DNA of 29,090 nt from a virus, in IMG/VR virus record IMGVR_UViG_3300032282_004537, positions 1 to 29,090 of that record; one strand, 5' to 3'. Numbering within the stretch: the stretch's first letter is position 1; the number at the start of each line of letters is the position of its first letter. The notes beneath the pieces are model-generated. The model saw only the letters and a program-made list of their open reading frames with translations, did not search any database and had not been told where the DNA came from. The position numbers and the translations under genes are program-made. Positions 4,764 through 25,313 of this stretch are shown piece by piece.

Positions 4764-5045
4764 ATGACAGATCTAAAGACTTTGGAACAGCAAGATAAAA
4801 AGCTTACCCGTGAAGAGCATATTGTTAATTATTTGAAAGCACTTAACACGATTGAGCAGGCTATTGAGCCGTATCGTGAGCACAAGCTTGCCCTAAAGAA
4901 GCACTATGCTGATAATAGTTTTCTTTCACGAGAAGATCAGAGTAAACTTCTCCGTGCTTATCGTATGGCCCAGAAGGGTGAAGAACTTGAAGATTTCGAA
5001 GAGTTTATTAATGTCATCAAGACAAAACTTAAAGTAGGAGTGTGA
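4764..5045 (+). CDS. Uncharacterised helical protein, 93 aa
   Basis: A soluble, charged, mostly helical protein with no motif I recognise. It starts MTDLKTLEQQDKKLTREEH and is rich in Glu and Lys. I chose ATG 4764 because TAGGAG lies 5 bases upstream. An in-frame ATG at 4737 lies inside the leader hairpin and has no SD. Its stop overlaps the start region of the GroES-like gene, so the two are probably translationally coupled. It is the first gene after the promoter at 4693-4720. Confidence 0.7.
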   Translation: MTDLKTLEQQDKKLTREEHIVNYLKALNTIEQAIEPYREHKLALKKHYADNSFLSREDQSKLLRAYRMAQKGEELEDFEEFINVIKTKLKVGV

Positions 5046-5047
5046 TG

Positions 5048-5320
5048 ATGAAGTTGGAACCGCGTAATAAAAGATTGGTATTAGAAGTAGTTAAAACGGT
5101 AAAAGAAGAGCCGGTCATGTCTGAATTTGCTGGACTGTCGAAAAAACGACCAGATAATTTTCTTTATCGCGTTGTTGATCGTTCTGATGATTGTACTGTT
5201 TCAATTCACACAGGAGATCTGATCCTTGTAGAAGGAAACATGGTTGAAGAGGCCAAGGTTGGAGAATTTACATTTTTGACTTGTAAAGAAAATTTTGTTA
5301 TTGGCCTTGTTAAGGAGTGA
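5048..5320 (+). CDS. GroES-like co-chaperonin (Cpn10 / gp31-like)
   Basis: A 90-aa protein with the shape of a Cpn10 subunit. It begins MKLEPRNKRLVLEVV, comparable to the MKIRPLHDRVIV strand of GroES. A mobile-loop-like region follows near 20-35, and the end matches the GroES closing strands (HTGDLILVEG ... FTFLTCKENFVIGLVKE). T4 and other phages encode such proteins to adapt host GroEL for folding the capsid protein. Sequence identity is low, so the call rests on pattern and length. Three starts occur in a row (GTG 5042, ATG 5045, ATG 5048). ATG 5048 has the best spacing (7) from GGAG at 5037-5040. Confidence 0.6.
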   Translation: MKLEPRNKRLVLEVVKTVKEEPVMSEFAGLSKKRPDNFLYRVVDRSDDCTVSIHTGDLILVEGNMVEEAKVGEFTFLTCKENFVIGLVKE

Positions 5321-5323
5321 TAT

Positions 5324-5707
5324 ATGGGAATGTATGATGAACTAACTTGCGAATATCCTCTTCCTGAGAAATATAAAAAATATCAGAATAGTGTATTTCA
5401 AACAAAAAGTTTGCTTAATTGTCTTGACAAGTACCTCATTACAAAAGAAGGTGAGTTAGTTCATCATTCCTATAATTGGGATGTTGTTCCAGAAGAAGAA
5501 CGACCATATTACGGTAAGCCAGAGTGGGATAAATTTAGCTGGATTGGTTCACTGAAAACAGTAGGCAAGGAACCACAAAAACTTAATCATACGGGTGAAG
5601 TTAGATTTTATGAATGGGATCTTGATGAAGATAAATGGATTGAATTTGTTGCTTTTTTTGCAAAAGGTAAATTGATCCATTTTGAAGCAGAGGAGAAAGA
5701 ACTATGA
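5324..5707 (+). CDS. Conserved phage protein of unknown function, 127 aa
   Basis: It begins MGMYDELTCEYPLPEKY and has FQTKSLLNCLDKY near 25-37. This layout (MGMYD, a Cys-x-x-PLP segment, FQTK, then a TKEGEL strand) is one I recall from small uncharacterised proteins in many tailed phages. No catalytic motif is visible. ATG 5324 follows AAGGAG. An internal ATG at 5330 is possible. It overlaps the next gene by 4 bases (ATGA). Confidence 0.7.
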   Translation: MGMYDELTCEYPLPEKYKKYQNSVFQTKSLLNCLDKYLITKEGELVHHSYNWDVVPEEERPYYGKPEWDKFSWIGSLKTVGKEPQKLNHTGEVRFYEWDLDEDKWIEFVAFFAKGKLIHFEAEEKEL

Positions 5708-6288
5708 AACAAGAACTTGAAGAACAACTCTATAACAAATATCCAAAACTGTTTAAAGAACGCACACTTCCCATGACACAAACAGCCATGTGTTTTGGAT
5801 TGGAATGTGGGTCTGGATGGTTTAATATTGTTGAACGTATGTGTTCTCTTATTCAAAACCACGTCAATCAGTCTCGTAGTTCTGCTTATTATGTAAAAAA
5901 ATATAATCGTGTTCTTAAACAAGCTATTAATGGAAATGATAGAAATCTACGCTTTCACTACAAGAAGCTTGGTCATAAAGATGAAGCTATTGAAGATTTT
6001 GTAAAAAGAGATCTTGAACAAAAAGCTTTTCGTCAACCATTTCGTGAAGTTGCACCACAACTTCAGTTTACTCAAATTAAAGAGAAGTTTGGAACTCTGA
6101 GAGCTTATAGCACAGGTGGCGATGAATACTGCGAAGGCGTAATCAGCATGGCAACAAGTATGAGTGCTATAACTTGTGAAGAATGTGGTATGCCAGGCAA
6201 ACAAAGAGGTGGTGCTTGGATAAGAACTCTTTGCGATAATTGTGTTGAAGCAAGAAAAACAAGGACTTTTAATGTTCAAAATTCTTGA
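5704..6288 (+). CDS. Conserved phage protein with C-terminal zinc-ribbon-like cysteines
   Basis: A 194-aa protein. The N-terminal part carries CFGLECGSGWFNIVERMCSLIQ near 30-51, the middle is basic and helical, and the C-terminal third has QIKEKFGTLRAYSTGGD followed by CEECG and CDNC (CxxC pairs about 20 residues apart). This arrangement recurs in uncharacterised phage proteins. The two CxxC pairs suggest a structural zinc site, and function is unknown. The start ATG overlaps the preceding stop by 4 bases, and the gene overlaps the next by 17 bases. Confidence 0.7.
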   Translation: MKQELEEQLYNKYPKLFKERTLPMTQTAMCFGLECGSGWFNIVERMCSLIQNHVNQSRSSAYYVKKYNRVLKQAINGNDRNLRFHYKKLGHKDEAIEDFVKRDLEQKAFRQPFREVAPQLQFTQIKEKFGTLRAYSTGGDEYCEGVISMATSMSAITCEECGMPGKQRGGAWIRTLCDNCVEARKTRTFNVQNS

Positions 6289-6799
6289 TATTAAGAAAAC
6301 AAAAAAGAGAAATAAGAATTACTTCTTTATTGAAGTAAACTTCTCTCATTCTGGTGAACACGAAAAAGATTTCCATTTTGGTCATCTTGACAAGTATTTT
6401 AAAGCAGTTGTTATGATTGATCGTCAAAAATATGAAGATCACTATAATAATCTGCCAGTAGACGATATGTATTTCGAAGATATTGAGGGAACAGAGTTTT
6501 CAACTGTTAAATTTAAAAGTGAAAGTCCATATGATCTTGGTTATTGTAAAACATTAGATTGTATTGGCGGCGATAGTATTCACAAGCTTGAAGATGGAAC
6601 TTTTAGATATTCTCAATATATCTCTTCTAACTATATTACAGAAGCAGCAGTTAAACAGCTAAAAGAAATGAAAGAACATCAAGATCGTGGTTTTTGCCGA
6701 TATGGTAATTATTCAGACCAAATTGGTGCTTTCCGTAGCGGAGATCCATTTCACGATTTTATCGGTATTGTGGAAACTCTTGACAGATTTTGGGATTGA
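6272..6799 (+). CDS. Unknown acidic protein, 175 aa
   Basis: It starts MFKILDIKKTKKRNKNYFFI and continues with strand-rich sequence (FFIEVNFSHSG, FHFGHLDKYFKAVVMID), then acidic and aromatic segments. No family is recognised. I chose ATG 6272 because AAGGA lies 6 bases upstream. An upstream GTG at 6242 in the same frame sits deep inside the previous gene. It ends the operon that began at 4764, and a 137-base AT-rich gap with a possible small membrane peptide follows. Confidence 0.65.
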   Translation: MFKILDIKKTKKRNKNYFFIEVNFSHSGEHEKDFHFGHLDKYFKAVVMIDRQKYEDHYNNLPVDDMYFEDIEGTEFSTVKFKSESPYDLGYCKTLDCIGGDSIHKLEDGTFRYSQYISSNYITEAAVKQLKEMKEHQDRGFCRYGNYSDQIGAFRSGDPFHDFIGIVETLDRFWD

Positions 6800-6815
6800 T
6801 ACATAATTATATATT

Positions 6816-6950
6816 GTGGATACTATAGGATTTTTGATATTATTATCAAGTATCATATTAAGTATCCCAATTTGGATTCTGAGTATAGGTATTTTACTTT
6901 TAGTTGAAGCATCGAATAAAAAAAGTTATATAGAATATGAAATTGAGTGA
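6816..6950 (+). CDS. Possible small single-pass membrane peptide, 44 aa
   Basis: An open frame from GTG 6816 to TGA 6948-6950 encodes a short N-terminus (VDTIG), about 25 hydrophobic residues rich in Ile, Leu and Ser, and a polar tail (EASNKKSYIEYEIE). No good SD is seen. Its 3' end overlaps the start of the M15 peptidase gene (ATG 6937) by 14 bases, and that gene also lacks an SD, which suggests translational coupling. Next to two lytic enzymes, a holin- or antiholin-like role is conceivable but not shown. An alternative start is TTG 6834. Confidence 0.35.
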   Translation: MDTIGFLILLSSIILSIPIWILSIGILLLVEASNKKSYIEYEIE

Positions 6951-7359
6951 ACATTTTTCCCTAGAAGAGATGACAAAATCTCAAACCGGATCTCGCAAGG
7001 GTATTGACAATACGCCCGGTGAAAAAGAAATACAAAATTTAAAACTATTATGTCAAAATGTGTTGGAAAAGATAAGAATTCACTTTGGAAGACCGGTTAA
7101 TGTCAATAGTGGATACAGAGGGCCAGCCTTAAACAAGGCTATTGGTGGAGCAAAGAAATCTCAGCATCTAACAGGCCAAGCAGCCGATATTGAAATAGCG
7201 GGAATAGATAATAAAATATTATTTTGCTGGATTAAAGATAATCTAGAATTTGATCAGTTGATCTTAGAATATTATAAACCTGGAGTGCCTGATAGTGGTT
7301 GGGTTCATGTTTCTTGGAATTCAGAAGGCAACAGAAAACAAGTTATAACAATAGATTAA
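6937..7359 (+). CDS. M15-family peptidoglycan peptidase (endolysin-type)
   Basis: A zinc D-Ala-D-Ala carboxypeptidase / L-Ala-D-Glu endopeptidase-like domain fills all 140 aa. The M15 signature SGYRGPALNKAIGGAKKSQH leads to zinc ligands H77 (SQHLTGQAADIE) and D84. E111 (QLILEYY) and H124 (WVHVSW) complete the site. There is no signal peptide, so it would need a holin to reach the wall. It cuts peptide stems or cross-bridges. The gene overlaps the small membrane ORF at 6816 and lies a short distance from a GH24 lysozyme gene at 8395, together forming a lysis region. Confidence 0.85.
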   Translation: MKLSEHFSLEEMTKSQTGSRKGIDNTPGEKEIQNLKLLCQNVLEKIRIHFGRPVNVNSGYRGPALNKAIGGAKKSQHLTGQAADIEIAGIDNKILFCWIKDNLEFDQLILEYYKPGVPDSGWVHVSWNSEGNRKQVITID

Positions 7360-13959: not shown

Positions 13960-14718
13960 TTGCAAAAATTAGAAAAACTCACCTATGACACCATAATACT
14001 TGGTGGAACTCTAGAAGCTCTTATTCACAGTTATGTTGAGGGAGTACCACTAATAATGGTAAACCCTCAAATTCCTTTCTATCGTGATATTGATCCACTT
14101 GGATCTAATAAATCTAGAATTTGGAGCAAATTAAGTTATTATCTTTCTTATGCCGGATTAAATTCAATTGGATTAAAAGCGGGAAATTACAGATTTGATG
14201 AAGATAATATTATAACAATATTCGGTAAAACAGCATATAAAGTAGAAATTAAATACAATAATTTAATAAGATATGATCAAATAGAACCAACAGAAAAATT
14301 AAGAGTTTTTGATTATATTAAAATGCAAAATATACAATTATCAGACATAGAAATAATAAACAAAATAAATACAGGCGATCATTTTGTAAATAATTTTTAT
14401 ACTATGATAGAAAATAGAGTATCCGATATTGCTTCTATTTCTTCTCTCACTCAAAATCAATTAAATGATGAACAATATAGTGAGATTTATGCTCGTTTAA
14501 AGACTATTGAAGTGTTGAAGTCTCATGGAATTGTTGGTAGAGTAGAACAATTACAAAAAGGATGTAGAACTCATAAATTAAAATCAACAACTCTTAGAAG
14601 AGAAGTTCTATTTGATACAAGACAAAAAGAAGATATAATATTAATGGAAAGAAAAGAAACAAAAAGTCCATTAATGAAAAAAATTACAGACATGTTAGGA
14701 AATCCTTATGTTGACTGA
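13960..14718 (+). CDS. Unknown protein with a Rossmann-like N-terminus, 252 aa
   Basis: TTG 13960 follows AAAGGTG. The N-terminus YDTIILGGTLEALIHSY then GVPLIMVNP has the strand, Gly-Gly turn and helix of a dinucleotide-binding fold, but with GGTLEA in place of GxGxxG. The remainder is Ile/Asn/Lys-rich and helical. It overlaps the next gene by 11 bases, so the pair probably acts together. I cannot name a family with confidence. A degenerate FAD- or NAD-binding protein is one possibility. Composition is AT-rich, like the glycosyltransferase pair. Confidence 0.55.
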   Translation: MQKLEKLTYDTIILGGTLEALIHSYVEGVPLIMVNPQIPFYRDIDPLGSNKSRIWSKLSYYLSYAGLNSIGLKAGNYRFDEDNIITIFGKTAYKVEIKYNNLIRYDQIEPTEKLRVFDYIKMQNIQLSDIEIINKINTGDHFVNNFYTMIENRVSDIASISSLTQNQLNDEQYSEIYARLKTIEVLKSHGIVGRVEQLQKGCRTHKLKSTTLRREVLFDTRQKEDIILMERKETKSPLMKKITDMLGNPYVD

Positions 14719-15643
14719 TATAGAAGATGGTAAAAAAGATATTAGTGCTTTTCATCTTGCCGGAATAATACCTGTAGCAGGTCAAAAACTTGATTTTAAA
14801 TTTCCATGGCACGATTGCTTGATGCCTGTTGCTGATAATTTAACCGCAGTAGAAAATGCTGTACTTCAATGTACTTATGCCGGCTGTGAAAGTATCTGGA
14901 TTGTTGCTCATCGTGAAATGCAGCCTATTTTACGCGATAGAATAGGTGATTGGATATTCGAATACGGTTCTTTACTTCAATCAAGATTTAAAGAAAGGAT
15001 GGCACAACATCAAGTAAAACAAACATCCATCTATTATGTTCCAATTCATCCAAAAGACCGTGATAAACGAGATTGTTTAGCGTGGAGTGTTATTTATGGT
15101 TCTTTGAGAGCATTTCATATATCAAAAACAATTAGTTCTTGGATTGTACCAGACAAATATTTTGTTTCATTTCCATATGGCGTTGTATCATTAGATTCAA
15201 TTTACCAAAATCGTTCGCTTATAAGTTCTCCAAAAAATTTTTATATGGAACATGATGGAAAAACAATTCGCGATGGAGAATATTTACCATTTACTTTCGA
15301 TAAAGAAGATTTTAAAAAGTTTCGCAGAGTTATAAGATCGGAAGGAACAGGAATGTTTGCTAATTTTCACAAGGACAAAGAAACAGGCAAAATAACACAA
15401 GATCGCCTCCCAGCGGAACAACGATACAGCGCCCGTTCCTTTCCGCTTGACAAGGTGTTCGGATGTGCTACACTTGAGGGCAACAATGTGGGCCAAACCG
15501 CATGGTATTCCCGCATAGATTCGTGGAAAAATTATCAAGAATTTATGCGTTCCGAAAATAGTAGATTAGTATATAGGCCGAAGTTCTTCAAATATCATGA
15601 GTGGAGTCCAATTGCAAAGGACAAAGAAGATTTAGAAGAGTAA
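14708..15643 (+). CDS. Unknown protein with nucleotidyltransferase-like N-terminus, 311 aa
   Basis: Residues ~18-70 (HLAGIIPVAG, FKFPWHDCLMPV, NLTAVENAVLQC, AGCESIWIVAH) follow the order of a sugar-nucleotidyltransferase: Gly-containing first strand, a conserved MPV-like strand, then a helix and a second strand. The GxGxR and downstream Lys motifs of true pyrophosphorylases are not evident. The C-terminal half is rich in aromatic and charged residues. It overlaps the preceding gene. A role in sugar activation for the phage glycosyltransferases is a tempting link but unproven. Confidence 0.5.
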   Translation: MLTDIEDGKKDISAFHLAGIIPVAGQKLDFKFPWHDCLMPVADNLTAVENAVLQCTYAGCESIWIVAHREMQPILRDRIGDWIFEYGSLLQSRFKERMAQHQVKQTSIYYVPIHPKDRDKRDCLAWSVIYGSLRAFHISKTISSWIVPDKYFVSFPYGVVSLDSIYQNRSLISSPKNFYMEHDGKTIRDGEYLPFTFDKEDFKKFRRVIRSEGTGMFANFHKDKETGKITQDRLPAEQRYSARSFPLDKVFGCATLEGNNVGQTAWYSRIDSWKNYQEFMRSENSRLVYRPKFFKYHEWSPIAKDKEDLEE

Positions 15644-15660
15644 TTACTTTTGGAGGAATT

Positions 15661-16029
15661 ATGGAAATGGCACTCACCGAAGAAAAAAAACTAATGGCTC
15701 GTTCTCCAAAGATGGAGGACAATCTTGATTTCGAAAAAATCAGAGAAAAAACAAAAAAGGCACGCCAAGCATTAATAGTTTCGGAAAAGCCAATTACTCC
15801 GAGTGAATTAAAAAGTATTCCAATGTATATTGGCGATATTGAAAGATATATCGATAAATATGCTTCTCAAGGAAAAGAAGAATTTCAGTACGATTGTAAA
15901 AACTTAACTAAGGCATGTTTCTTTGAATTAGCAAATCAATTCAAACATAAATACAAAGAATTTTTCGTTGTAACAAATTCTAAAACTCAAGTTATTACAA
16001 TTAATTGGTCTGGCAAAAGTGAAGTATGA
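15661..16029 (+). CDS. Unknown small charged protein, 122 aa
   Basis: It starts MEMALTEEKKLMARSPKMED after GGAGG (15652-15656). ATG 15667 is an equally good start with longer spacing. An earlier in-frame ATG at 15601 lies inside the previous gene. The protein is Lys/Glu-rich and helical, with DIERYIDKYASQGKEEFQYD near 60-80 and a strand-rich end (EFFVVTNSKTQVITINW). No family recognised. It overlaps the next gene by 4 bases. Confidence 0.6.
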   Translation: MEMALTEEKKLMARSPKMEDNLDFEKIREKTKKARQALIVSEKPITPSELKSIPMYIGDIERYIDKYASQGKEEFQYDCKNLTKACFFELANQFKHKYKEFFVVTNSKTQVITINWSGKSEV

Positions 16030-16217
16030 AAATCCGATATATCTATCCTGCTGATAATGAAGATGGGTTTGAAGAAGTAATTGTAACACGCGAAGAGGCA
16101 ATAAAAATTCAACGAGAACATGTTGCAAAAGTTCGCCCTCATTTCGTTTATAAAAACGATGAAGAAGCACTTTTGGATTATATGTGTATTCATTGGGCTG
16201 AAGAAATACCGGATTAA
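16026..16217 (+). CDS. Unknown small protein, 63 aa
   Basis: Begins MKIRYIYPADNEDGFEEVIV and ends DYMCIHWAEEIPD. The start overlaps the previous stop (ATGA). Acidic, with no membrane segment or known motif. It belongs to a run of four small genes in the same direction with overlaps or gaps of 2-4 bases, typical of phage accessory modules. Confidence 0.55.
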   Translation: MKIRYIYPADNEDGFEEVIVTREEAIKIQREHVAKVRPHFVYKNDEEALLDYMCIHWAEEIPD

Positions 16218-16219
16218 AC

Positions 16220-16411
16220 ATGAAATTCACCATTGGTGATATGTTAGTACAAGTGAACCCAACAGAAAATATATTTTGGATTCTTGTAAAAAAAGATGCA
16301 CAAGGGTTTCATTTTGAAGCTGGAAAAAGAAAAATCAGATATGTCTCTAGTTATCAGTTGCGAGAATTGATTTCTCGTGGTATATATCAGTACTTCCCGG
16401 TGGTAAAATGA
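16220..16411 (+). CDS. Small GD(L/M)L-family protein A, 63 aa
   Basis: It begins MKFTIGDMLVQVNP and ends with a Tyr-rich QYFPVVK. The next gene and the one at 16678 share the start MK-x-x-[IV]-GD-[LM]-L, a central I[IL]-like strand (FWILVKKD here) and, for this one and the next, a Y-x-V-[IV]-K end. The pattern suggests a small beta-barrel (SH3-like) fold and paralogues arisen by duplication. Function unknown. It overlaps the following gene by 4 bases. Confidence 0.55.
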   Translation: MKFTIGDMLVQVNPTENIFWILVKKDAQGFHFEAGKRKIRYVSSYQLRELISRGIYQYFPVVK

Positions 16412-16590
16412 AAATTGAAGTTGGAGATCTCCTATTAGTAAATGGACAATTGTGGACAATAATTCAAAAGAATAGAAATGTTCCACTTATTCTTGAAAAT
16501 GGAGATAGAAAAGTTCATATGTATCTTTATGAAATACAACGTTGGTTAAAAAGAGATAAAGATAGTAAGCATTACTCTGTAATCAAATAA
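16408..16590 (+). CDS. Small GD(L/M)L-family protein B, 60 aa
   Basis: Begins MKIEVGDLLLVNGQLWTIIQ and ends KHYSVIK. It is a paralogue of the 63-aa protein at 16220, with matching length, start and end. The start overlaps the previous stop codon. Behind it lies an SD (AAGAGG) that serves the broken dnaE start at 16602. No function is known. Confidence 0.55.
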   Translation: MKIEVGDLLLVNGQLWTIIQKNRNVPLILENGDRKVHMYLYEIQRWLKRDKDSKHYSVIK

Positions 16591-16601
16591 AAGAGGTTTA
16601 A

Positions 16602-16673
16602 ATGACTGAACGTAAAGTGTCCAATATTAAATTCGTTGGACTTCATGCCCATTCGGGCTTTTCTATTAGGTGA
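16602..16673 (+). pseudogene. Remnant of a dnaE 5' end (23 codons)
   Basis: ATG 16602, preceded by AAGAGG, opens a 23-codon frame ending at TGA 16671. It contains IKFVGLHAHSGFSI, which lines up with IKFIGLHCHDGFSL at the start of the intact DnaE encoded at 17776. The nucleotide sequences also align (about 70% over ~45 bases by eye), and both have AAAGAGG upstream. After FSI the homology stops. It is the 5' end of a second or former dnaE copy, cut off where the gene at 16678 begins. The peptide may still be translated. Confidence 0.75.
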
Positions 16674-16677
16674 TTTA

Positions 16678-16950
16678 ATGAAATACAAAGTTGGTGATCT
16701 TCTGTTTATCAAGAAATATGAATATAAACTTCGCCTTCGCCTTCGCCTTCGCCTTCCCCCTCGCCCTCACCTTCGCCTTCGCCCTCTCATTCAAAATACA
16801 TTTGGTATTATCACCGAAGTTGAAAAACATACGGATCTTTTTGAAAAGGATTCAACTGAAAACAACAACGGTTACATTTGGTATTCACAAGTTGATGGAA
16901 AAGAATACTATTTCTACCAAGATGAAGTTGATGGTGAGGTGATTAGTTAA
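16678..16950 (+). CDS. Small GD(L/M)L-family protein C with Leu-Arg repeat, 90 aa
   Basis: ATG 16678 (MKYKVGDLLFIKKYEYK) lies 5 bases after the TGA of the dnaE remnant, with AGGTGATTT upstream. The N-terminus matches the two paralogues at 16220 and 16408. Then a hexamer repeat encodes alternating Leu-Arg and Pro residues (about residues 18-37), and a C-terminal part (FGIITEVEKHTDLF, YYFYQDEVDGEV) returns to the family pattern. The repeat looks like an expansion inserted between two strands. An in-frame ATG at 16636 would overlap the remnant and is less likely. Confidence 0.55.
   Translation: MKYKVGDLLFIKKYEYKLRLRLRLRLPPRPHLRLRPLIQNTFGIITEVEKHTDLFEKDSTENNNGYIWYSQVDGKEYYFYQDEVDGEVIS
16729..16788 (+). 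repeat. CTTCGC hexamer microsatellite, 10 units
   Basis: Ten tandem hexamers: four CTTCGC, then CTTCCC, CCTCGC, CCTCAC, two CTTCGC and CCTCTC. It is GC-rich and pyrimidine-only apart from G and one A, in an AT-rich genome. Six-base units keep the reading frame of the 16678 gene, so copy-number change would only add or remove two residues. Confidence 0.95.
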
Positions 16951-16966
16951 ATTAATTTATCTTTTG

Positions 16967-16975
16967 TGGTAAGAT
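16967..16975 (+). promoter_or_regulatory. Extended -10 promoter candidate before the GIY-YIG gene
   Basis: TGG followed by TAAGAT (16970-16975) forms an extended -10. The -35 region (TTAAAT at 16947-16952, 17-base spacing) matches poorly. Expected start near 16982 leaves a 30-base leader with a good SD before ATG 17013. It would also feed dnaE. Confidence 0.35.
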
Positions 16976-16990
16976 ACACCATTCATATTA

Positions 16991-16999
16991 CTATTTATA
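16991..16999 (+). promoter_or_regulatory. CTATTTATA motif before the GIY-YIG gene
   Basis: Exact copy of the 9-mer at 7362 and 8857. It ends 13 bases before ATG 17013 and directly abuts the SD (TGAGGAG), so if it were a -10 box the transcript would begin inside the SD. This copy may therefore have another role. Confidence 0.25.
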
Positions 17000-17012
17000 C
17001 TGAGGAGTTAAT

Positions 17013-17789
17013 ATGACAAGCGGCGTATATATCATAAAAAATAAAATTAATAATAAAGTTTATATAGGAAGTTCAATTCATATTCCTAAAAGATGGAAAG
17101 AACACATAAGACATTTAGACAGCAATGAACATACTAATCAATATTTACAAAATTCTTGGAATCAAAATGGAAAAGACAATTTTGAATTTTTAATAGCCGA
17201 AGAATGTGATATAGAAAATTTATTGATAGTAGAACAAAAATGGCTTGATACTACAAAATCATATGAGCCAGAAAATGGCTATAATATTTGTCAGTATGCG
17301 GGCAACACTCTTGGAAGGTTTCATACAGAAGAAGCAAGAAAGAAAATTAGTGAAAACCACCACGATGTTAGTGGAGAAAATAACCCTATGTTTGGCGTTC
17401 CTTCACCAAATTTTGGTAAAAGACACAGCGAAGAAACAAAAAATAAAATATCTCAAAAACTAAAGGGTAAGAAATCTTGGAATGAAGGAAAAACAAAAGA
17501 AAATGATCTTTTACTAAAAAAACATTCAGAAAGAATGACTGGTAAAAATAATCCTTTTTATGGGAAAACCCTTTCTGAAGAAAGAAAAGATCAATTAAGA
17601 AAAAATAAAAGTGGTGAAAATAATTCCTTGTCTAAATTGACTTGGGAAAAGGTTAGGCAAATAAGAAAACTAAACAAAGATGGCTTGTCTAATCGCAAGA
17701 TTGCTGCTATGTTTGATGTATCTTCAACTACCATCTGTAGTATTGTAAATAATCTATCTTGGAAAGAGGAAAATAATGGAACGAATTAA
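17013..17789 (+). CDS. GIY-YIG homing endonuclease with NUMOD3 repeats
   Basis: A free-standing intron-type endonuclease of the I-TevI / Seg kind. The GIY-YIG domain is at ~1-95: SGVYIIKN, VYIGSS, R27 of KRWKEH, and E74 (LLIVEQKWLD). It is followed by DNA-binding NUMOD3 modules (GENNPMFGV, GKRHSEETKNKISQ, GKNNPFYGKTLSEERKDQLR) and a C-terminal helix-turn-helix of the NUMOD1 kind (GLSNRKIAAMFDVSSTTICS). Its 3' end overlaps the dnaE start by 14 bases. Such enzymes cut the matching site in phages lacking them and spread by repair. Position next to dnaE, and just after a dnaE 5' remnant, suggests dnaE is the target region. Confidence 0.9.
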   Translation: MTSGVYIIKNKINNKVYIGSSIHIPKRWKEHIRHLDSNEHTNQYLQNSWNQNGKDNFEFLIAEECDIENLLIVEQKWLDTTKSYEPENGYNICQYAGNTLGRFHTEEARKKISENHHDVSGENNPMFGVPSPNFGKRHSEETKNKISQKLKGKKSWNEGKTKENDLLLKKHSERMTGKNNPFYGKTLSEERKDQLRKNKSGENNSLSKLTWEKVRQIRKLNKDGLSNRKIAAMFDVSSTTICSIVNNLSWKEENNGTN

Positions 17790-20700
17790 GTCAAAAATTA
17801 AGTTCATCGGACTCCATTGTCATGACGGCTTCTCACTTTTTGATGGACTTGGATTGCCGCAAGAACATATGGATTTTGCTTATTCAAATGGAATGGATGC
17901 CATGGCTATAACAAACCATGGCAACATGAATTCTCTTGCATATCAAGTTCTACATGCCAAGAAAATGAAAAAGGAAGGAAAAGATTTCAAGCCGATCTAT
18001 GGCTGTGAAATGTATTTTCATCCTTCTATTGCTGCTTGGCGGAAAGATAAGGAAGAAATTGAAAAAACAACAAAAGCAAAAAAAGAGGACGAAGAGATCA
18101 CAGGAGCGATTGTTGAGAACGAAGAAGAGACAAAGAAGACTAAGAAGAGTATCCTCAATCGGCGTTCCCACCTTGTTCTTCTCGCACAAAATCAGAAAGG
18201 TCTGAATAATCTTTTTACTCTTATCAGCAAGAGTTTTTCAGACGAGAATTACTATCGTTTTCCTCGTATTGACTATGAAATGTTGAAGCAATTCAACGAA
18301 GGTATTATTGCGTCTTCTGCCTGTCTTGGTGGAGTATATGCTACTGATTTTTGGGAGAATTGGGATAATGGTGAAGAAGCAATTCTAAATGCTATGCGTG
18401 AAACATCACGCAAGATGATTGATGTATTTGGTGATCGTTGGTATGGCGAAGTTCAGTGGAATGGTATTCCAGAACAGCACAAATTAAATCAACTGATTAT
18501 TCGTGTATGCGAAGAGTTTGGTATTAAAGTTATTTCTACTGGTGATAGTCATTATCCATCTCCCGGAGCTTGGAAAGACCGAGAAATTTACAAGAAACTT
18601 GGTTTTCTTGGTAATGGCAAAACAATTGATACTACCCTTCCAGATAGTATTGATGACATGGAATATACACTTTATCCCAAGAACGGTGATGAAATGTGGC
18701 AGGCATACAAGAAGTATTCTGCCAAGTGTGGTGTAAAGTATAATGACGATTTTGTCCTCAAAACAATTGAGGAAACATGGGATATTGCCTTCAATCGTAT
18801 TGAAAACTTTATTCCAGATAATACTGTTCGTCTGCCAAATTTTATTCTTCCCGAAGGTAAAACAGCAGAAGAAACACTTGATCAACTCGCAGAAACAGGT
18901 TTGCGAGATATGAAGAAGTGGAGCAATAAAGAATATCATGATCGCCTTCTACGAGAACTTGATGTAATCAAGGAGCGTGGATTTGCCAAGTATTTCTTGA
19001 CAATGAAAGCGATTTCTGATCGTGCAAATGAAAGTTATATTACTGGTCCCGGTCGTGGTTCTGCGGCAGGTGCTCTTGTATCTTATGTTCTTGGAATTAC
19101 TCAAGTTGATCCAATTAAGCATGGCCTTCAATTTGAGCGTTTCCTTTCAAAGACAGCAACAGATTATCCCGATATTGATTATGATGTAAGTGATGCTATG
19201 GGATTGAAACAGAACCTTATTGATGAATGGGGCAAGAATAATGTTGTTCCAATTACAAATTGGAATACACTACAGCTGCGTTCACTAATCAAGGATATTA
19301 GTAAGTTCTATGGCGTTGATTTCCAAGAGGTAAATGCAGTAACAAATAAAATGTTGCTTGAAGCAACTCCACTTGCGAAAGCGGAGCATGGAATTACTGC
19401 TGGTGTATATAATCCAACATTCGAAGAGGTAATGAAATATTCACTATCCCTTCAAACATTCCTCGGTCAGTATCCGCATATCAAAACCCATATTGAACAA
19501 TTACATGGTTCAATCCGTTCAGCATCTCGTCATGCTGGCGGTATTGTTGTTGGTGAAAATCTTGATAAATGGATGCCGCTAATCAATAGCAAGGGTGTTC
19601 GCCAAACACCTTGGAGTGAGGGTCAGAACGTCCGTCACCTTGAACCTATGGGTTTTATCAAGTTTGACGTACTTGGTCTTGAAACTTTGAATATGATGGA
19701 GAAAGCAATTCAGCATGTTCTCCGACGTCATCATGGAATTAAAAATCCAGAATTCAAAGATGTGAAGCAATTCTATTCCAAACATCTACATCCTGATGTC
19801 TTGGACATGAATGACAAGAATGTATATGAGAATATTTTTCATGCTGGTAAATGGGCAGGAATTTTCCAATTTACAGAAAGTGGAGCACAAAATTTCTGTC
19901 AGAAAGTAAAGCCAAACAATATCGTTGATATTTCTTCTATTACTTCTATTTTCCGTCCCGGTCCTCTATCTGCCGGGGTAGATAAATCATTTGCCGAAAG
20001 TAAGCATGATCCGGATAGTGTTGTGTATGAACATCCACTAATCAAAGAGGCTACAAGTGAAACATACGGATACTTGGTTTTCCAAGAACAGATTGCCTTA
20101 CTTGCTCACAAACTTGGTCGTGACATTTCTCTTGATGAAGGTAATTCTCTCCGAAAAGTCTTGACCAAGAAAGGAACAGGAAAGGAGGCAGAAGTTAAAG
20201 AAAAACTACACGATAAGTTTATTAATGGTTGTGTAGATAAAGGTCTTGGTAAAGAGATTGGTGAGAAACTGTGGCAGAAGTTTATTTACTTCTCAGGATA
20301 CGGTTTCAACAAGTCTCATGCTGTATCTTATTCTATTATTTCTTTCCAGTGTGCTTGGTTGTACAATTATTATCCAAGCGAATGGCTTGCTGCCTATCTT
20401 GACAGTCAGCCAGAAACAAAGAAAGAAAAGGCAGTAAATATCGTAAAGGCCGCTGGATATAATGTTCAAGGCGTAGATATTAATAAGTCTGGAAAAGTAT
20501 GGGAAATTAGTGAAGATGGAAAAACATTAATTCAGCCACTTTCAGCCATCAAGGGTGTAGGTGATGCTGCTATTAAAGAGATCCTTGATCATAGACCGTT
20601 TAAAACGATTGAGGACTTCCTTTTCCATCCTCGTGTAAGTTATAGTAAGTTGAATAAGAAGAATGTTGATGCTCTTTGTAGGAGTGAAGCACTTCTGTCA

Positions 20701-21195
20701 TTAATGGATAGTCGCTTTACTGGAGGTAAGCATTTCTGGTCTGCTGTCGCTGTTGATCGTCCTCGTAAACCGGATAATCTCCTTGAGAATATTAAAACAT
20801 ATGCAGCAGAAGGAGACTTTACGCGAGATGAAAAAATTCTTAACACTTTGGAGTTGACAGGAGTTTATCCAATCAATATGATAGTCTCCGAGGATGTTCA
20901 GAAGAAACTTGCAGAAAAAATGATCCCACCTCTAGGTGAATTTGATCAAGAACTTGGTATTTGTTGGTTCATTCCAAAAGGTATTGAGAAGAAAACAACG
21001 AAGAAAGGTACACAATATCTAATCGTTGAGGCGATTGATGAAACTAATATTGTGACCAAGATTAAGTGTTGGAAATTTGATCCAAAGAAAGATATAATTC
21101 ATCTCAATCATCCTTATGTTGCAAGGTTGGAATATCAAGAGGATTGGGGTTTTTCAGTTCGTTCTATTAACAAAGCATTTAAGCTTATTGGGTAA
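17776..21195 (+). CDS. dnaE: DNA polymerase III alpha subunit (family C polymerase)
   Basis: The replicative polymerase, 1139 aa. Domains in order: PHP (GLHCHDGFSLFDG, ITNHGN, YGCEMYF, GDSHYPSP), with most metal-type His residues kept; palm with GPGRGSAAGALVSYVLG near 422 and catalytic D466 and D468 in PDIDYD; third Asp D631 in KFDVLGL; fingers and beta-binding region with GYGFNKSHAVSYS; helix-hairpin-helix AIKGVGDAAIKEIL near 922; and a C-terminal OB fold to ~1130. A Lys/Glu-rich insert lies near 93-125. It is slightly shorter than E. coli DnaE. ATG 17776 follows AAAGAGGAAAATA, inside the endonuclease gene. A DnaE in place of a family A or B phage polymerase is unusual for T4-like neighbours. 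Confidence 0.95.
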   Translation: MERIKSKIKFIGLHCHDGFSLFDGLGLPQEHMDFAYSNGMDAMAITNHGNMNSLAYQVLHAKKMKKEGKDFKPIYGCEMYFHPSIAAWRKDKEEIEKTTKAKKEDEEITGAIVENEEETKKTKKSILNRRSHLVLLAQNQKGLNNLFTLISKSFSDENYYRFPRIDYEMLKQFNEGIIASSACLGGVYATDFWENWDNGEEAILNAMRETSRKMIDVFGDRWYGEVQWNGIPEQHKLNQLIIRVCEEFGIKVISTGDSHYPSPGAWKDREIYKKLGFLGNGKTIDTTLPDSIDDMEYTLYPKNGDEMWQAYKKYSAKCGVKYNDDFVLKTIEETWDIAFNRIENFIPDNTVRLPNFILPEGKTAEETLDQLAETGLRDMKKWSNKEYHDRLLRELDVIKERGFAKYFLTMKAISDRANESYITGPGRGSAAGALVSYVLGITQVDPIKHGLQFERFLSKTATDYPDIDYDVSDAMGLKQNLIDEWGKNNVVPITNWNTLQLRSLIKDISKFYGVDFQEVNAVTNKMLLEATPLAKAEHGITAGVYNPTFEEVMKYSLSLQTFLGQYPHIKTHIEQLHGSIRSASRHAGGIVVGENLDKWMPLINSKGVRQTPWSEGQNVRHLEPMGFIKFDVLGLETLNMMEKAIQHVLRRHHGIKNPEFKDVKQFYSKHLHPDVLDMNDKNVYENIFHAGKWAGIFQFTESGAQNFCQKVKPNNIVDISSITSIFRPGPLSAGVDKSFAESKHDPDSVVYEHPLIKEATSETYGYLVFQEQIALLAHKLGRDISLDEGNSLRKVLTKKGTGKEAEVKEKLHDKFINGCVDKGLGKEIGEKLWQKFIYFSGYGFNKSHAVSYSIISFQCAWLYNYYPSEWLAAYLDSQPETKKEKAVNIVKAAGYNVQGVDINKSGKVWEISEDGKTLIQPLSAIKGVGDAAIKEILDHRPFKTIEDFLFHPRVSYSKLNKKNVDALCRSEALLSLMDSRFTGGKHFWSAVAVDRPRKPDNLLENIKTYAAEGDFTRDEKILNTLELTGVYPINMIVSEDVQKKLAEKMIPPLGEFDQELGICWFIPKGIEKKTTKKGTQYLIVEAIDETNIVTKIKCWKFDPKKDIIHLNHPYVARLEYQEDWGFSVRSINKAFKLIG

Positions 21196-21202
21196 AAAAA
21201 AT

Positions 21203-21643
21203 ATGAAAATAGCAATTACAAGTGGATATTTTAATCCAATACATCCAGGTCATATTGAGTGCTTTAAATTAGCAAAAGAATTACCAGAAATAACTAAGTT
21301 ATGTGTTATTGTCAATAATGATAAACAAGCGTTTCTGAAACGTGGTGTCCAGTCATTTCAAAAGCAAGAAGATAGAATTTCTATTGTTTCTTCCATTAAA
21401 TGTGTAGATGATGTATTTTTATCAATTGATGATGATCTTACTGTTTGTAACACATTAAAAAATGTAGTTTCTTATTACCAAGCTATGGATCATAGAGTTG
21501 GATTTGTTTTCGCAAAGGGTGGAGATAGATTTTCTAATAACACTCCTGAAAAAATAATTTGCGATGAATTAGGAATCCAATTAATTGACGGTTTAGGAGC
21601 AAAAACACATAACAGTTCAGATTATGTGAAAGGAATTGTATAA
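21203..21643 (+). CDS. Cytidylyltransferase-like protein (HxGH nucleotidyltransferase)
   Basis: A 146-aa single-domain protein of the cytidylyl/adenylyl-transferase superfamily. The nucleotide-binding motif is SGYFNPIHPGHIECF near 6-20 (HPGH). KGGDR near 110 and NSSDYVKGIV at the C-terminus take the place of the ISSSxxR-type motif. Relatives include glycerol-3-phosphate cytidylyltransferase and the C-domain of HldE. It would join CTP or ATP to a phosphorylated substrate, perhaps to make a nucleotide sugar or cofactor. ATG 21203 follows the dnaE stop after 7 bases with no clear SD. A longer in-frame start at 21116 lies inside dnaE. It overlaps the next gene by one base. Confidence 0.75.
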   Translation: MKIAITSGYFNPIHPGHIECFKLAKELPEITKLCVIVNNDKQAFLKRGVQSFQKQEDRISIVSSIKCVDDVFLSIDDDLTVCNTLKNVVSYYQAMDHRVGFVFAKGGDRFSNNTPEKIICDELGIQLIDGLGAKTHNSSDYVKGIV

Positions 21644-22007: not shown

Positions 22008-22495
22008 TGTTGTTAGAATATACTACCGTACATGAAAATGTTTTCAAACCAACGAGAGCAAATCCAAGTGACGTTGGTCTTGATCTCTTCTTTTCTCCCG
22101 ATGTAAAACACGGAGAACATGATCAAGAAAAGAATATACCACTTGGTAGTATTGTAATCATGCCAAGTCAATGTGTAAAAATCAGAACCGGTTTGCGCTT
22201 TGCTGTACCACATGGATTTTGTTTAGAAATTAAGAACAGAAGTAGCGTAAGTAGTAAAAAAGAACTTCTTGTTGGTGGTGGTGTTATTGATCCCGGTTAT
22301 GATGGTGAAGTTGTAATCATCATGCATAATGTTGGTCGTAATCCACAAATTATTAAACCAGGAGACAAAATTGCACAAGCAGTATTGTTTCCAGTAGTTC
22401 ATGTTAGACCAATATTGGTCGATGAGAAAAAATTATATGCTGATAAAATCGCCATGAGCGATAGAGGTAATAATGGATTTGGTTCAACAGGCTGA
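22007..22495 (+). CDS. dut: dUTP pyrophosphatase (trimeric dUTPase)
   Basis: Hydrolyses dUTP to dUMP, keeping uracil out of phage DNA and feeding ThyX. All five family motifs are present in order: DVGLDLF (motif 1), NRSSVS (2), GGVIDPGYDGEVVI (3), PGDKIAQAVLFPV (4) and a C-terminal arm RGNNGFGSTG (5). Length 162 aa is normal for the homotrimer. ATG 22007 is 7 bases after AAGGTG. ATG 22001 in the same frame is too close to the SD. The last 23 bases overlap the HNH endonuclease gene, so the conserved arm motif and the start of a selfish gene share DNA. Confidence 0.95.
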   Translation: MLLEYTTVHENVFKPTRANPSDVGLDLFFSPDVKHGEHDQEKNIPLGSIVIMPSQCVKIRTGLRFAVPHGFCLEIKNRSSVSSKKELLVGGGVIDPGYDGEVVIIMHNVGRNPQIIKPGDKIAQAVLFPVVHVRPILVDEKKLYADKIAMSDRGNNGFGSTG

Positions 22496-23006
22496 TAATA
22501 GTATTTCTGTCCAAGAAATATGGAAGCCGGCAATAAAAAATAATAAAGTTCTACCTGGCTATGAAGTTTCTAATCTTGGTAAAATTAGAAACAAAAAAGG
22601 TATTATCTTAAAATGTCAAGATGAAGTGCCATCAGGCAAAGGTGCTTTCAAAGGTGCCAGACAATCGATAGGATTATCAATACCAGAAAATTTATATGAA
22701 GATTATAAATACAAGAAAACAACACCAAATCGTAAATCTTGTAAGATTACAATCTCAGTTCATCGTCTAATCATAGAAACTTTTAAACCTATCGATGATT
22801 ATCCACCTATTCCAAAACACGAATGGGATGTAACTCCAGAAAGTGCTAAAAGATTAATAAGAGAATGTTGTGTTGTAGATCACATAGATAATAATCCATT
22901 AAACAACAACATTAATAATTTACGCTGGGTTTCATTAAAAGAAAACCAAACATTTATAAAAAAACATTTATTCAAAAAAGAAAGTATTGGTGAAAACATA
23001 TGCTAA
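22473..23006 (+). CDS. HNH homing endonuclease (NUMOD4 + HNH)
   Basis: A 177-aa free-standing endonuclease. NUMOD4 at ~15-45 reads EIWKPAIKNNKVLPGYEVSN followed by LGKIRN. The HNH part reads VDHIDNNPLNNNINNLRWVS near 138-157. It starts inside the last codons of dut (AGAGGTAATA before ATG 22473) and overlaps the methyltransferase start by 7 bases, so it has inserted without breaking either neighbour. Likely cleaves dut or adjacent sequence in related phages lacking it. Separate from the GIY-YIG enzyme. Confidence 0.88.
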   Translation: MDLVQQADNSISVQEIWKPAIKNNKVLPGYEVSNLGKIRNKKGIILKCQDEVPSGKGAFKGARQSIGLSIPENLYEDYKYKKTTPNRKSCKITISVHRLIIETFKPIDDYPPIPKHEWDVTPESAKRLIRECCVVDHIDNNPLNNNINNLRWVSLKENQTFIKKHLFKKESIGENIC

Positions 23007-23488: not shown

Positions 23489-23763
23489 AACCAATAAAAG
23501 ATAAATCAAAATCATACAAGGATAAAGAAAAAGACCTCAAACAGAAATTAAATATGTTTGATCGTATTCCAGATCATTGCTTGACTTGTAACTCTCCGTT
23601 TGATAGAAAGAATAAGGAGCAAGTTCAGTCGTGGTTTGTTGTTGTAAAAAACGCTGACAATAAAGTAAATCTTTATTGCCCTTCATGTTGGGGTAAAGCA
23701 ACATCGTTGGTTGAACAAGTTATTAATGGAGAAAAAAATGCTACAGACAGCTCTGACGTTTGA
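23485..23763 (+). CDS. Small zinc-ribbon-like protein, 92 aa
   Basis: Basic, helical N-terminus (MKPIKDKSKSYKDKEKDLKQ), then HCLTCNSPFD and LYCPSCWGKA: two CxxC knuckles about 36 residues apart that would hold one zinc. The start overlaps the methyltransferase stop (ATGA). Its 3' end overlaps the IMPDH gene start by 26 bases. No function can be given. Confidence 0.6.
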   Translation: MKPIKDKSKSYKDKEKDLKQKLNMFDRIPDHCLTCNSPFDRKNKEQVQSWFVVVKNADNKVNLYCPSCWGKATSLVEQVINGEKNATDSSDV

Positions 23764-24571
23764 TGATGTACTTCTTGTGCCAAAATACAGTTCAATTACG
23801 AGCCGAAGCGAAGTTGATCTAAAACTTAATCTAGATCCAACAAGACAACTTTCTCTTCCTGTTATTTCATCTCCGATGGATACGGTTACAGAAGTAGAAA
23901 TGGCTGTAACTATGTCCAAACATGGTGGTCTTGGAATTATACATCGTTATAATTCTATTCAAGAGCAAGTAAAACTTGTTTGTGATGCAAAACAAGCAGG
24001 TGCCAAACTTGTTGGTGCTGCTGTTGGTTCAACAGGCGATTTCTATGAAAGAGCATTTGAACTTATAAAATTTGATATTGATGTAATTTGTGTTGATGTT
24101 GCACACGGACATCACCAGAATGTAAAAGAAGCAATACAAAAGATTAAAAATCATCCAAGTCATTATAAGTTCCATCTTATGGCTGGAAATGTTGCTACAG
24201 GAAAAGCTTTTCAAGATTTAAGTGATTGGGGAGCTGATAGTATCCGTGTAGGTATTGGTGGTGGTTGTTTCGTCCCAGGAACTCTTGTAAATACTGAAAA
24301 TGGTTTGAAGAAAATTGAAGAAGTAAAAGTAGGTGATAAAGTTTTCAGTCATACAGGAAAACTACAATCTGTTGTTGATACTCTTGTGTTTGATAGAGAC
24401 GAAGAAATTGTATCTATTAATGGTATTGATTGCACTAAAAATCACGAGTTTTATGTAATTGACAAAGAAAATGCCAGTCGTGTAAATGAAGATAATATTC
24501 ATCTATTTGCCCGATGGGTTCATGCAGAAGAGCTTGATATGAAAAAACATCTACTTATTGAATTGGAGTAG
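23738..24571 (+). CDS. guaB: IMP dehydrogenase-like N-terminal half fused to N-intein
   Basis: Residues 1-176 are the first part of an IMPDH/GMP-reductase TIM barrel: FDDVLLVPKYSSI, SSPMDTVTE, GGLGIIHRYNS, DVAHGHHQ, MAGNVATG and VGIGGG. The CBS domains usual in IMPDH are absent. Directly after GIGGG begins a 101-residue N-intein (C177, CFVPGT) and a stop codon. ATG 23738 follows GGAG by 6 bases. A longer in-frame frame from TTG 23711 lies in the previous gene. The enzyme becomes whole only if this chain trans-splices with the product of 24684-25313. IMPDH makes XMP from IMP and leads to guanine nucleotides. GMP reductase is the alternative. Confidence 0.9.
   Translation: MLQTALTFDDVLLVPKYSSITSRSEVDLKLNLDPTRQLSLPVISSPMDTVTEVEMAVTMSKHGGLGIIHRYNSIQEQVKLVCDAKQAGAKLVGAAVGSTGDFYERAFELIKFDIDVICVDVAHGHHQNVKEAIQKIKNHPSHYKFHLMAGNVATGKAFQDLSDWGADSIRVGIGGGCFVPGTLVNTENGLKKIEEVKVGDKVFSHTGKLQSVVDTLVFDRDEEIVSINGIDCTKNHEFYVIDKENASRVNEDNIHLFARWVHAEELDMKKHLLIELE
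24266..24568 (+). mobile_element. N-terminal half of a split intein (IMPDH-1 type)
   Basis: 101 residues from the nucleophile C177 of the host protein to the stop. CFVPGTLVNTENGLKKIEEV is the first block. TKNHEFYV is block B with the TxxH motif, and FARWVHAEELDMKKH lies near the end. The sequence closely recalls the IMPDH-1 split intein reported from environmental phage-like sequences. No endonuclease domain is inside. Insertion is at GIGGG/SICST, two residues before the catalytic Cys. Confidence 0.92.
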
Positions 24572-24694
24572 GTACAAAATGCAGGAACAGCACAACTGAA
24601 TGGTTATAAATTATATCGCGTTAGAGAAGATGAAAATAGAAAAGTAGATTTTCTAAAAGAGATCAAACAAATAAGGGAGTTTTATGAAGTTTAA
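24572..24694 (+). pseudogene. Open-frame relic between the intein halves, possibly a homing endonuclease tail
   Basis: In the frame of the N-half and directly after its stop, 40 codons stay open to TAA 24692. They include LNGYKLYRVREDENRK and FLKEIKQIREFYEV. The shape (L-x-GYK-x-x-RxRE-E, then a Lys-rich helix) looks like the C-terminal end of Vsr-like (very-short-patch-repair) homing endonucleases, the type associated with fractured intein genes. No start codon or upstream domain remains. The tail overlaps the C-half start and its SD. The identification is tentative. Confidence 0.5.
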
Positions 24695-24803
24695 ATTAAA
24701 AGAAATAACCTCTATTGAGACAAAACACTATAAGGGTGTCGTACATGATCTTACCGTAAATGAAGATCATTCTTATAATATTCGTGGAACAATTGTTCAT
24801 AAC
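24684..24803 (+). mobile_element. C-terminal half of the split intein
   Basis: 40 residues starting MKFKLKEITSIETKHYKG, with block F (VHDLTVNEDHSYN) and block G ending VHN, followed by Ser as the +1 extein residue. This His-Asn-Ser junction is the standard splice end. It pairs with the N-half at 24266-24568. Confidence 0.92.
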
Positions 24804-25313
24804 TCTATCTGTTCAACACGACTACAAACAGGTTTTGGTGTTCCTAATCTTGCTGCTATATTTGATTGTGTTCAGACACAGGCATATAAGAGTGGAAAAA
24901 CAAAACTTATTGTTGATGGTGGTATTAAGAATAGTGGAGATATGGTAAAAGCTTTTGCTGCTGGTGCTCATTTTGTTATGTGTGGTTCATTACTTGCCGG
25001 AACAGATGAAAGTCCAGGTGAAACTTTTGTTGATGGTAATGGCGTAAAGATGAAGAATTACCGTGGTATGGCTTCAAGAGAAGCACAAACAGATTGGCGC
25101 GGTAAAAGTTCAGCACCAGAAGGTATTTCTACGTTCATTAAACACAAAGGTTCAGTAAACCCTATCCTTGATGATATTCGTGGAAACATCCAAAGTGGAT
25201 TTTCATATGCCGGTGCAAGAAACTTCACAGAACTATCAGGTAAGGTTGAGTTTATTCAGCAGACAAGTGCTGGTGCTGCTGAAAGCTTTACACATATCTT
25301 ACATAAAAAATGA
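24684..25313 (+). CDS. guaB: C-intein fused to the IMP dehydrogenase-like C-terminal half
   Basis: Residues 1-40 are the C-intein and 41-209 the C-extein. The extein starts S41-I42-C43, completing the IMPDH loop GSICSTR with catalytic C43. Then TGFGVPNLAAIFDC, IVDGGIKNSGDMVKAFAAGA, MCGSLLAGTDE, YRGMASREAQ, APEGIS and SGFSYAGA follow. The flap region is short and lacks the clear Arg-Tyr pair of typical IMPDH. The joined enzyme would be 345 residues, close to GMP reductase length. ATG 24684 follows AAGGGAG. The stop overlaps the start of the next gene (ATGA). Confidence 0.9.
   Translation: MKFKLKEITSIETKHYKGVVHDLTVNEDHSYNIRGTIVHNSICSTRLQTGFGVPNLAAIFDCVQTQAYKSGKTKLIVDGGIKNSGDMVKAFAAGAHFVMCGSLLAGTDESPGETFVDGNGVKMKNYRGMASREAQTDWRGKSSAPEGISTFIKHKGSVNPILDDIRGNIQSGFSYAGARNFTELSGKVEFIQQTSAGAAESFTHILHKK

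Follow-up and report, generated by a model that had tools for sequence, protein, structure and literature searches.

Upstream of the intact dnaE gene in this viral DNA lies a short reading frame that looks like the beginning of another dnaE, which raises the question whether it is the gene's own former 5′ end and, if so, what displaced it. The window, i.e., the whole stretch of DNA that was analysed, is 29,090 nucleotides long. A preliminary description had reported a 23-codon frame with its own Shine-Dalgarno (SD) sequence at 16602-16673, and the start codon (ATG, 16602-16604), the stop codon (TGA, 16671-16673) and the SD (AAGAGG, beginning eleven bases 5′ of the ATG) were located exactly there. 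The product of the frame is MTERKVSNIKFVGLHAHSGFSIR*. The intact gene starts with ATG 17776, 1174 nt away, in agreement with the distance of about 1.17 kb given earlier; it extends from 17776 to 21195 and codes for 1139 amino acids, beginning with MERIKSKIKFIGLHCHDGFSLFDGLG. As read from the sequence, the region is composed of the following features.

16408-16590, plus strand: small gene of 60 amino acids (MKIEVGDLL...), an open reading frame directly 5′ of the old dnaE start.
16591-16601, plus strand: SD AAGAGG (16591-16596) and spacer of the former dnaE; context identical in contig L119.
16602-16667, plus strand: former dnaE codons 1-22, the displaced 5′ end; 62/66 nt and 20/22 amino acids identical to the dnaE start of L119; homologous fragments in L001, L003, L004 and L113.
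16668-16673, plus strand: AGGTGA, left end of the insert, which ends the old frame with R and a stop and looks like an SD for the gene that follows; TTTTCTATTAGGTGA also in L129, L003 and L113.
16678-16950, plus strand: small inserted gene of 90 amino acids (MKYKVGDLL) with CTTCGC-type repeats; identity to L129 97% in the first 63 nt and 92% in the last 153 nt; not present at this site in L119.
16951-17012, plus strand: leader of the endonuclease gene, the SD of which is enclosed in a predicted hairpin (fold z = -2.73); 60/62 nt shared with L001.
17013-17789, plus strand: free-standing GIY-YIG homing endonuclease with NUMOD3 and HTH segments; PF01541, 9.7e-13; PF07460, 3.7e-22; phrog_314 homing endonuclease, 5.5e-36.
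17776-17940, plus strand: replacement dnaE codons 1-55, carried with the endonuclease; about 67% nucleotide identity to L119 over codons 1-60; 212/216 nt of codons 1-72 shared with L001, which carries the same endonuclease.
17941-21195, plus strand: resident dnaE body; L119 homology resumes at codon 56; domains PHP, DNA_pol3_alpha, finger and HHH_6.

Homology of the short frame to dnaE stops at codon 22 (16667, ...TTTTCTATT). A search of the 3-kb upstream stretches of relatives with its first 22 residues matched the fragments found there with E ~1e-12. An uninterrupted counterpart is present in L119, a contig obtained with a degenerate DNA search for GLH[A/S]HSGFS that returned 30 stretches. 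Here the SD AAGAGG is followed by MTERKLSKIKFVGLHAHSGFSIFDGLGYP..., and an intact dnaE of 1140 amino acids (MTERKLSKIKFVGLHAHSGFSIFDGLG) lies directly 3′ of a small gene, behind the same SD as the fragment of the window. With this E value and the 20/22 amino acids and 62/66 nt shared with the L119 start, the homology that the preliminary description had seen between fragment and DnaE N-terminus is far above chance. It had also suggested that the fragment is the former 5′ end of dnaE and that a relative without the insert should then start dnaE at this place; L119 does so, with the same SD and the same start. On these comparisons 16602-16667 is the true dnaE start, displaced.

The neighbourhood on the left is preserved as well: in L001 and L003 an MKIEVGDLL-like small gene ends just 5′ of the fragment; in L113 and L119 this place, before the fragment and before dnaE respectively, is taken by a different small gene of the same type. 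DnaE of L119 is only about 90% identical to that of the window, and the window junction is therefore read across some divergence. L113 (occupied) and L119 (empty) are a close pair, in which the insert is absent from an otherwise similar allele. Their left flanks are colinear, with 92.3% identity over 2776 columns, and colinearity ends at L113:4663 = L119:6541, the final base of codon 22; right of L113:4663 follow the small gene, the endonuclease gene and a foreign dnaE start. Counted per 30 nt and leaving out the truncated last block, the dnaE genes of the pair share 16-23 positions up to about codon 75 (about column 240) and 25-30 from there on. The sequence of this pair shows an insertion after codon 22.

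In the window, the TGA of the fragment ends 4 nt before the ATG of the small inserted gene (16678-16950), which the first reading had left unmentioned. Inside this gene, hexamer runs of the CTTCGC/CTTCTC type (16729-16791) encode RLRLRL repeats, the length of which varies between phages. The endonuclease is encoded by a separate ORF in a frame different from that of dnaE, and the 3′ end of its gene overlaps the dnaE ATG by 14 nt. Between the fragment and the endonuclease leader, the DNA of the window and that of L001 differ entirely. The L001 fragment breaks directly after TTTTCT, and a 220 amino acid gene (L001:4470-5159) without a Pfam or PHROGs match replaces the usual small gene. PHROGs gave no name for five other proteins of the window or L001.

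The dnaE gene downstream of the insert consists of two parts. Compared with L119 in 45-nt blocks, it shows 30, 30, 30 and 31 identities, followed by 44 and 43 (from codon 61), and per-codon identity changes at codon 55/56 (17940/17941). The displaced fragment and the window's own dnaE start share 41/63 nt. On the right side, the dnaE start of the cassette passes into the resident dnaE at codon 55-75, and a full-length hybrid DnaE is encoded: a carried foreign gene end restores dnaE, and the native codons 1-22 are displaced upstream. The preliminary description had assumed that the GIY-YIG gene came in together with a related dnaE by co-conversion. Co-conversion of flanking sequence is indeed seen as sharp identity tracts with boundaries inside dnaE, but only the first 55-75 codons or so came in, not the whole gene.

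A scan of IMG/VR with the DnaE protein yielded 80 loci, including five contigs with 81-95% identity. Four of these five include the 5′ part of dnaE and the region upstream, and three of them (L001, L003 and L004) carry the fragment at the same place. L113 was added through a search with the L003 endonuclease; it probably represents the same phage as L005, which comes from the same metagenome and meets it within dnaE. L003, L004 and L113 have no GIY-YIG gene and encode instead a LAGLIDADG_3 protein, the gene of which likewise overlaps the dnaE ATG (the domain was tested on L003, where the gene lies at 5223-6011, and on L004; the L113 protein is identical to that of L003). Endonuclease type and dnaE 5′ type form two linked sets, the window with L001 and L003 with L004 and L113. 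In the second set the dnaE 5′ type is identical at 215/216 nt between L003 and L113 and at 89-93% between L003 and L004; between window and L003, 147/216 nt of dnaE are identical before codon 72 and 225/234 after it. L003 and L113 share 991/994 nt over the endonuclease gene and dnaE codons 1-72, compared with 423/474 in dnaE codons 73-230 and 282/369 in an upstream gene, a sign that about 1.1 kb was transferred recently. Together with the linked types, this tract shows that nuclease and dnaE start travel together, recently in L003/L113. Spread between lineages is also seen. The left side may have formed once, because the left junction and the small gene are common to several lineages. In the 5′ half of the small gene L003 and L113 share 71/108 nt, and it may be that nothing but nuclease and dnaE start was exchanged in later moves. 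Among cultured phages, all 1351 INPHARED records with a DnaE relative were below 60% identity (tblastn), and a DNA search gave short matches only; a scan of genome contigs found two relatives near 60%, the others being distant.

The same plan occurs in a second lineage with a third nuclease. DnaE of L129, L123 and L131 is about 60% identical to that of the window or L119, and their dnaE is preceded by a fragment (MTERVKSVIPFVNLHGHSTFSIR*), TTTTCTATTAGGTGA, an MKYKVGD gene and the nuclease gene. The L129 nuclease, encoded at 4804-5607, contains a Phage_endo_I domain (7.3e-8); among solved structures, its best matches are those of endonuclease I. L129 and the window share 36/57 nt in fragment codons 1-19 and 61/63 in the first 63 nt of the inserted gene (Fisher p 2.8e-6). 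Each lineage thus seems to have kept its own start as the left-over, the mobile part being the DNA on the right of it. An intact dnaE with the exact L129 start was not found; the best intact start was that of L073 (76%). L118 also has the third nuclease; its fragment is shortened and runs in frame into the small gene. Nucleases of the homing endonuclease type are thus encoded at the site in three forms, GIY-YIG (window), LAGLIDADG_3 (L003 and L004) and Phage_endo_I (L129). The arrangement is best read as a recurrent homing cassette that uses the same plan with three unrelated families (GIY-YIG, LAGLIDADG and T7-endonuclease-I-like), each of which goes with a dnaE 5′ end of its own.

In the third cassette type, 10 additional nucleotides with a stop lie precisely at the junction codon. 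In seven distinct contigs (L129 at 5609-5720, L118, L123, L130, L131, L135 and L002 (L141)) a stop follows right after GLH(A/S)HSGFS (TTTTCC TAA TGG), and dnaE continues in the +1 frame. A sequencing error as cause of the stop in L002 was rejected, since the seven distinct contigs share it; two further matches to the pattern, L219 and L220, are due to chance, with no dnaE there. This dnaE type might be read either by a +1 ribosomal frameshift at UUU UCC UAA U or from an AUG start in the other frame. The other-frame AUG is missing in L130, where the remaining stop-pattern contigs have one, and in a frame test of the stop region 4/11 variable sites were at frame-A third positions. In L142, with a dnaE about 40% identical, a 12-nt in-frame insertion with TAA follows GLHAHSGFS (about 2489-2530, oriented), and the gene has a further gap of about 1.3 kb at a later position. 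In L135, about 1.16 kb (6036-7193, oriented) interrupt dnaE after residue 701, probably another mobile element.

We consider it probable, at roughly 0.86, that the fragment is the 5′ end of the resident dnaE, displaced by a homing cassette that inserted after codon 22, directly 3′ of the PHP metal-binding motif (GLHAHS), with a dnaE start of its own. The endonuclease would cut the intact gene near codon 22, and repair would copy the cassette (from left to right the small gene, the homing endonuclease gene and its own dnaE 5′ end) into this site through homologous recombination. The right crossover would fall within dnaE where donor and recipient agree. The cassette's dnaE start would escape cutting since its site sequence differs: TTTTCTATT of L119 aligns with TTCTCACTT in the window, TATAGTATC in L003, and TTTTCC with ten extra nucleotides before ATT in L129. 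The resident codons 1-22 remain upstream as a dead-end reading frame.

Whatever its origin, the fragment could now be a working short gene, a leader peptide or a translational coupler, which we regard as unlikely. It has its own SD, is conserved in five close relatives and stops 4 nt before the next ATG; in the five fragments 6/7 variable sites are at third codon positions (P = 0.007). It also changes more slowly than its neighbours: fragment and SD together are identical at 74/77 nt vs. 282/369 in the neighbour gene between L003 and L113 (p 1.7e-5), at 72/77 vs. 291/369 between window and L003, and at 71/77 vs. 304/368 between window and L001. A pure relic would not show this unless each copy was recently captured from an intact dnaE, but the same pattern is expected if the fragments recently belonged to intact dnaE genes. 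Moreover, only 9 codons are left in L002, the fragment is fused to the next gene in L118, and the two lineages encode different peptides. Repeated recent capture from intact dnaE would explain the conservation, the alternative being a retained role, such as that of a homology arm or of a short leader that is translated; the codon-6 variant of the L113 fragment is shared with L119. The earlier view that the fragment had diverged before it was cut off fits the third-position pattern, but later constraint on the fragment predicts the same pattern.

The joint occurrence of fragment and nuclease was counted in 174 distinct contigs including the window, of which 21 with less than 1300 nt upstream were left out, leaving 153. 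As the contigs had been collected by searching for dnaE and for the fragment, they are not a random sample. The endonuclease-search loci without dnaE (L086-L112 and L115), L219, L220, the genome loci L221-L237 and L005 stand outside the census. Fragment and endonuclease occur together in 8/153 contigs, which fall in about three related groups, and in all eight the endonuclease gene abuts dnaE. The full fragment was found in 0/142 contigs without an endonuclease match, and an endonuclease match without the full fragment in three (L118, L074 and L078); in L074 and L078 the GIY-YIG matches lie about 1.5-2 kb upstream, do not abut dnaE and are not accompanied by a fragment. Other nuclease families could be missed, because the census searched only for GIY-YIG, LAGLIDADG and T7-endonuclease-I-like proteins. 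With eight contigs, three nuclease families and two dnaE lineages, the arrangement is not the rare footprint that the preliminary description had taken it for. L002, L130 and L135 have the third-type dnaE 5′ end, small genes at the site and none of the three nucleases. L002 keeps a 9-codon fragment remnant (MTERVVSNR*), which is below the census threshold and was counted as no fragment; this contig looks like a former carrier because its dnaE 5′ end goes with the third nuclease. L119, the eight carriers and these three contigs look like empty, occupied and nuclease-lost states of the site, in an order that we infer.

A tandem duplication, in which MKxxVGDLL-type small genes and dnaE codons 1-22 were duplicated by unequal exchange and the endonucleases arrived later and independently, is very improbable. 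Small genes of this type do cluster here (16220-16411, 16408-16590 and 16678-16950), and L002 has a shortened fragment and small genes without an endonuclease, but this is the contig that looks like a former carrier. The fragment matches the downstream dnaE start at only 41/63 nt and the L119 start at 62/66. Between lineages, the inserted gene differs far less than do the fragments on its left, and the full fragment was absent without an endonuclease match (0/142). The sharp left boundary between window and L129 strains the duplication further, and L119 and L113 also weaken it. That fragment and dnaE are joined by RNA or protein splicing is scarcely credible: endonuclease genes of these families often reside in introns, but the stretch 14000-21500 has no match in Rfam up to E = 1, a separate start and a complete PHP motif are present in the downstream dnaE, and the DNA from fragment to endonuclease leader is entirely different in window and L001. 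A group I intron was rejected on the Rfam result and the separate dnaE start, and an intein because the endonuclease is not in frame inside DnaE but ends 14 nt into dnaE in another frame.

The displacing cassette has a close likeness in fungal mitochondria, where the mORFs of Allomyces atp6 and Glomus atp6, atp9, cox2 and nad3 are described as LAGLIDADG or GIY-YIG ORFs that bring a divergent gene end into a gene and leave the native end on the far side (PMC3630166). The two C-terminal copies of Glomus atp6 share only 63.5% with each other, but one of them shares 91.2% with that of a close relative (PMC3630166), much like the figures at dnaE. The mORFs described there replace the 3′ (carboxy-terminal) end in mtDNA, whereas the dnaE cassette replaces the 5′ end in a phage genome; it works like a mORF but is for this reason not filed as a member (PMC3630166). 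The dnaE site also has three nuclease families at one position, including the endonuclease-I-like type, which the available text of PMC3630166 does not report for mORFs. The seg and mob genes of T4-like phages, as described in PMC2988022, share with the cassette the position of an endonuclease beside an essential replication gene and the co-conversion of flanks, and the predicted SD hairpin of the window (z = -2.73) resembles the regulation reported there for several T4 endonucleases. In that account their usual place is between genes, or else they divide a gene into two functional parts (PMC2988022), whereas dnaE is remade whole with the old start left over. In T4, the endonuclease gene mobA lies in the topoisomerase gene, together with the 50-nt bypass element, an out-of-frame insertion that may be protective (PMC5009743). 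The dnaE site likewise has an endonuclease in a replication gene, and the 10 nt of the third cassette are comparable to the bypass element; the T4 gene is split into two proteins, whereas DnaE stays one gene. In the open-access literature searched, no phage case of a carried 5′ gene end was found. The dnaE cassette is best read as the 5′-end, phage mirror image of the fungal mitochondrial 3′-end arrangement.

Home-and-rescue drives carry a cut-proof replacement part of their target gene. The dnaE cassette resembles the synthetic versions described in PMC7968924 in that a nuclease is aimed at an essential gene, and it differs in being natural and viral, in having a fixed homing enzyme and in that its cut-proofness is inferred (PMC7968924). 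Tentatively, and with somewhat less than even odds in our estimation, it might be a natural counterpart of such drives: a codon-22 cassette with three nuclease families, each with a cut-resistant start, that keeps codons 1-22 as left homology arm, one type resisting through a 10-nt out-of-frame insertion that ribosomes shift across.

With empty, occupied and apparently nuclease-lost states of one site, the life cycle of a homing element in an essential gene may be readable from sequence. By bringing a spare gene start, a nuclease can settle beside a replicative polymerase's catalytic motif with neither intron nor intein. The 5′ ends annotated for phage polymerase genes can be foreign, and small broken starts upstream of genes can be footprints of homing. 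The three pairs of nuclease and substitute start make cleavage resistance directly testable.

Two further observations concern other parts of the window. At 23711-25313, what we take to be an IMP-dehydrogenase-like gene extends over two ORFs and is apparently interrupted by an intein-like stretch (GGGCFVPGTLV... to ...IVHNS). A 177 amino acid protein encoded at 22473-23006 reads like an HNH endonuclease and may be a further mobile endonuclease.
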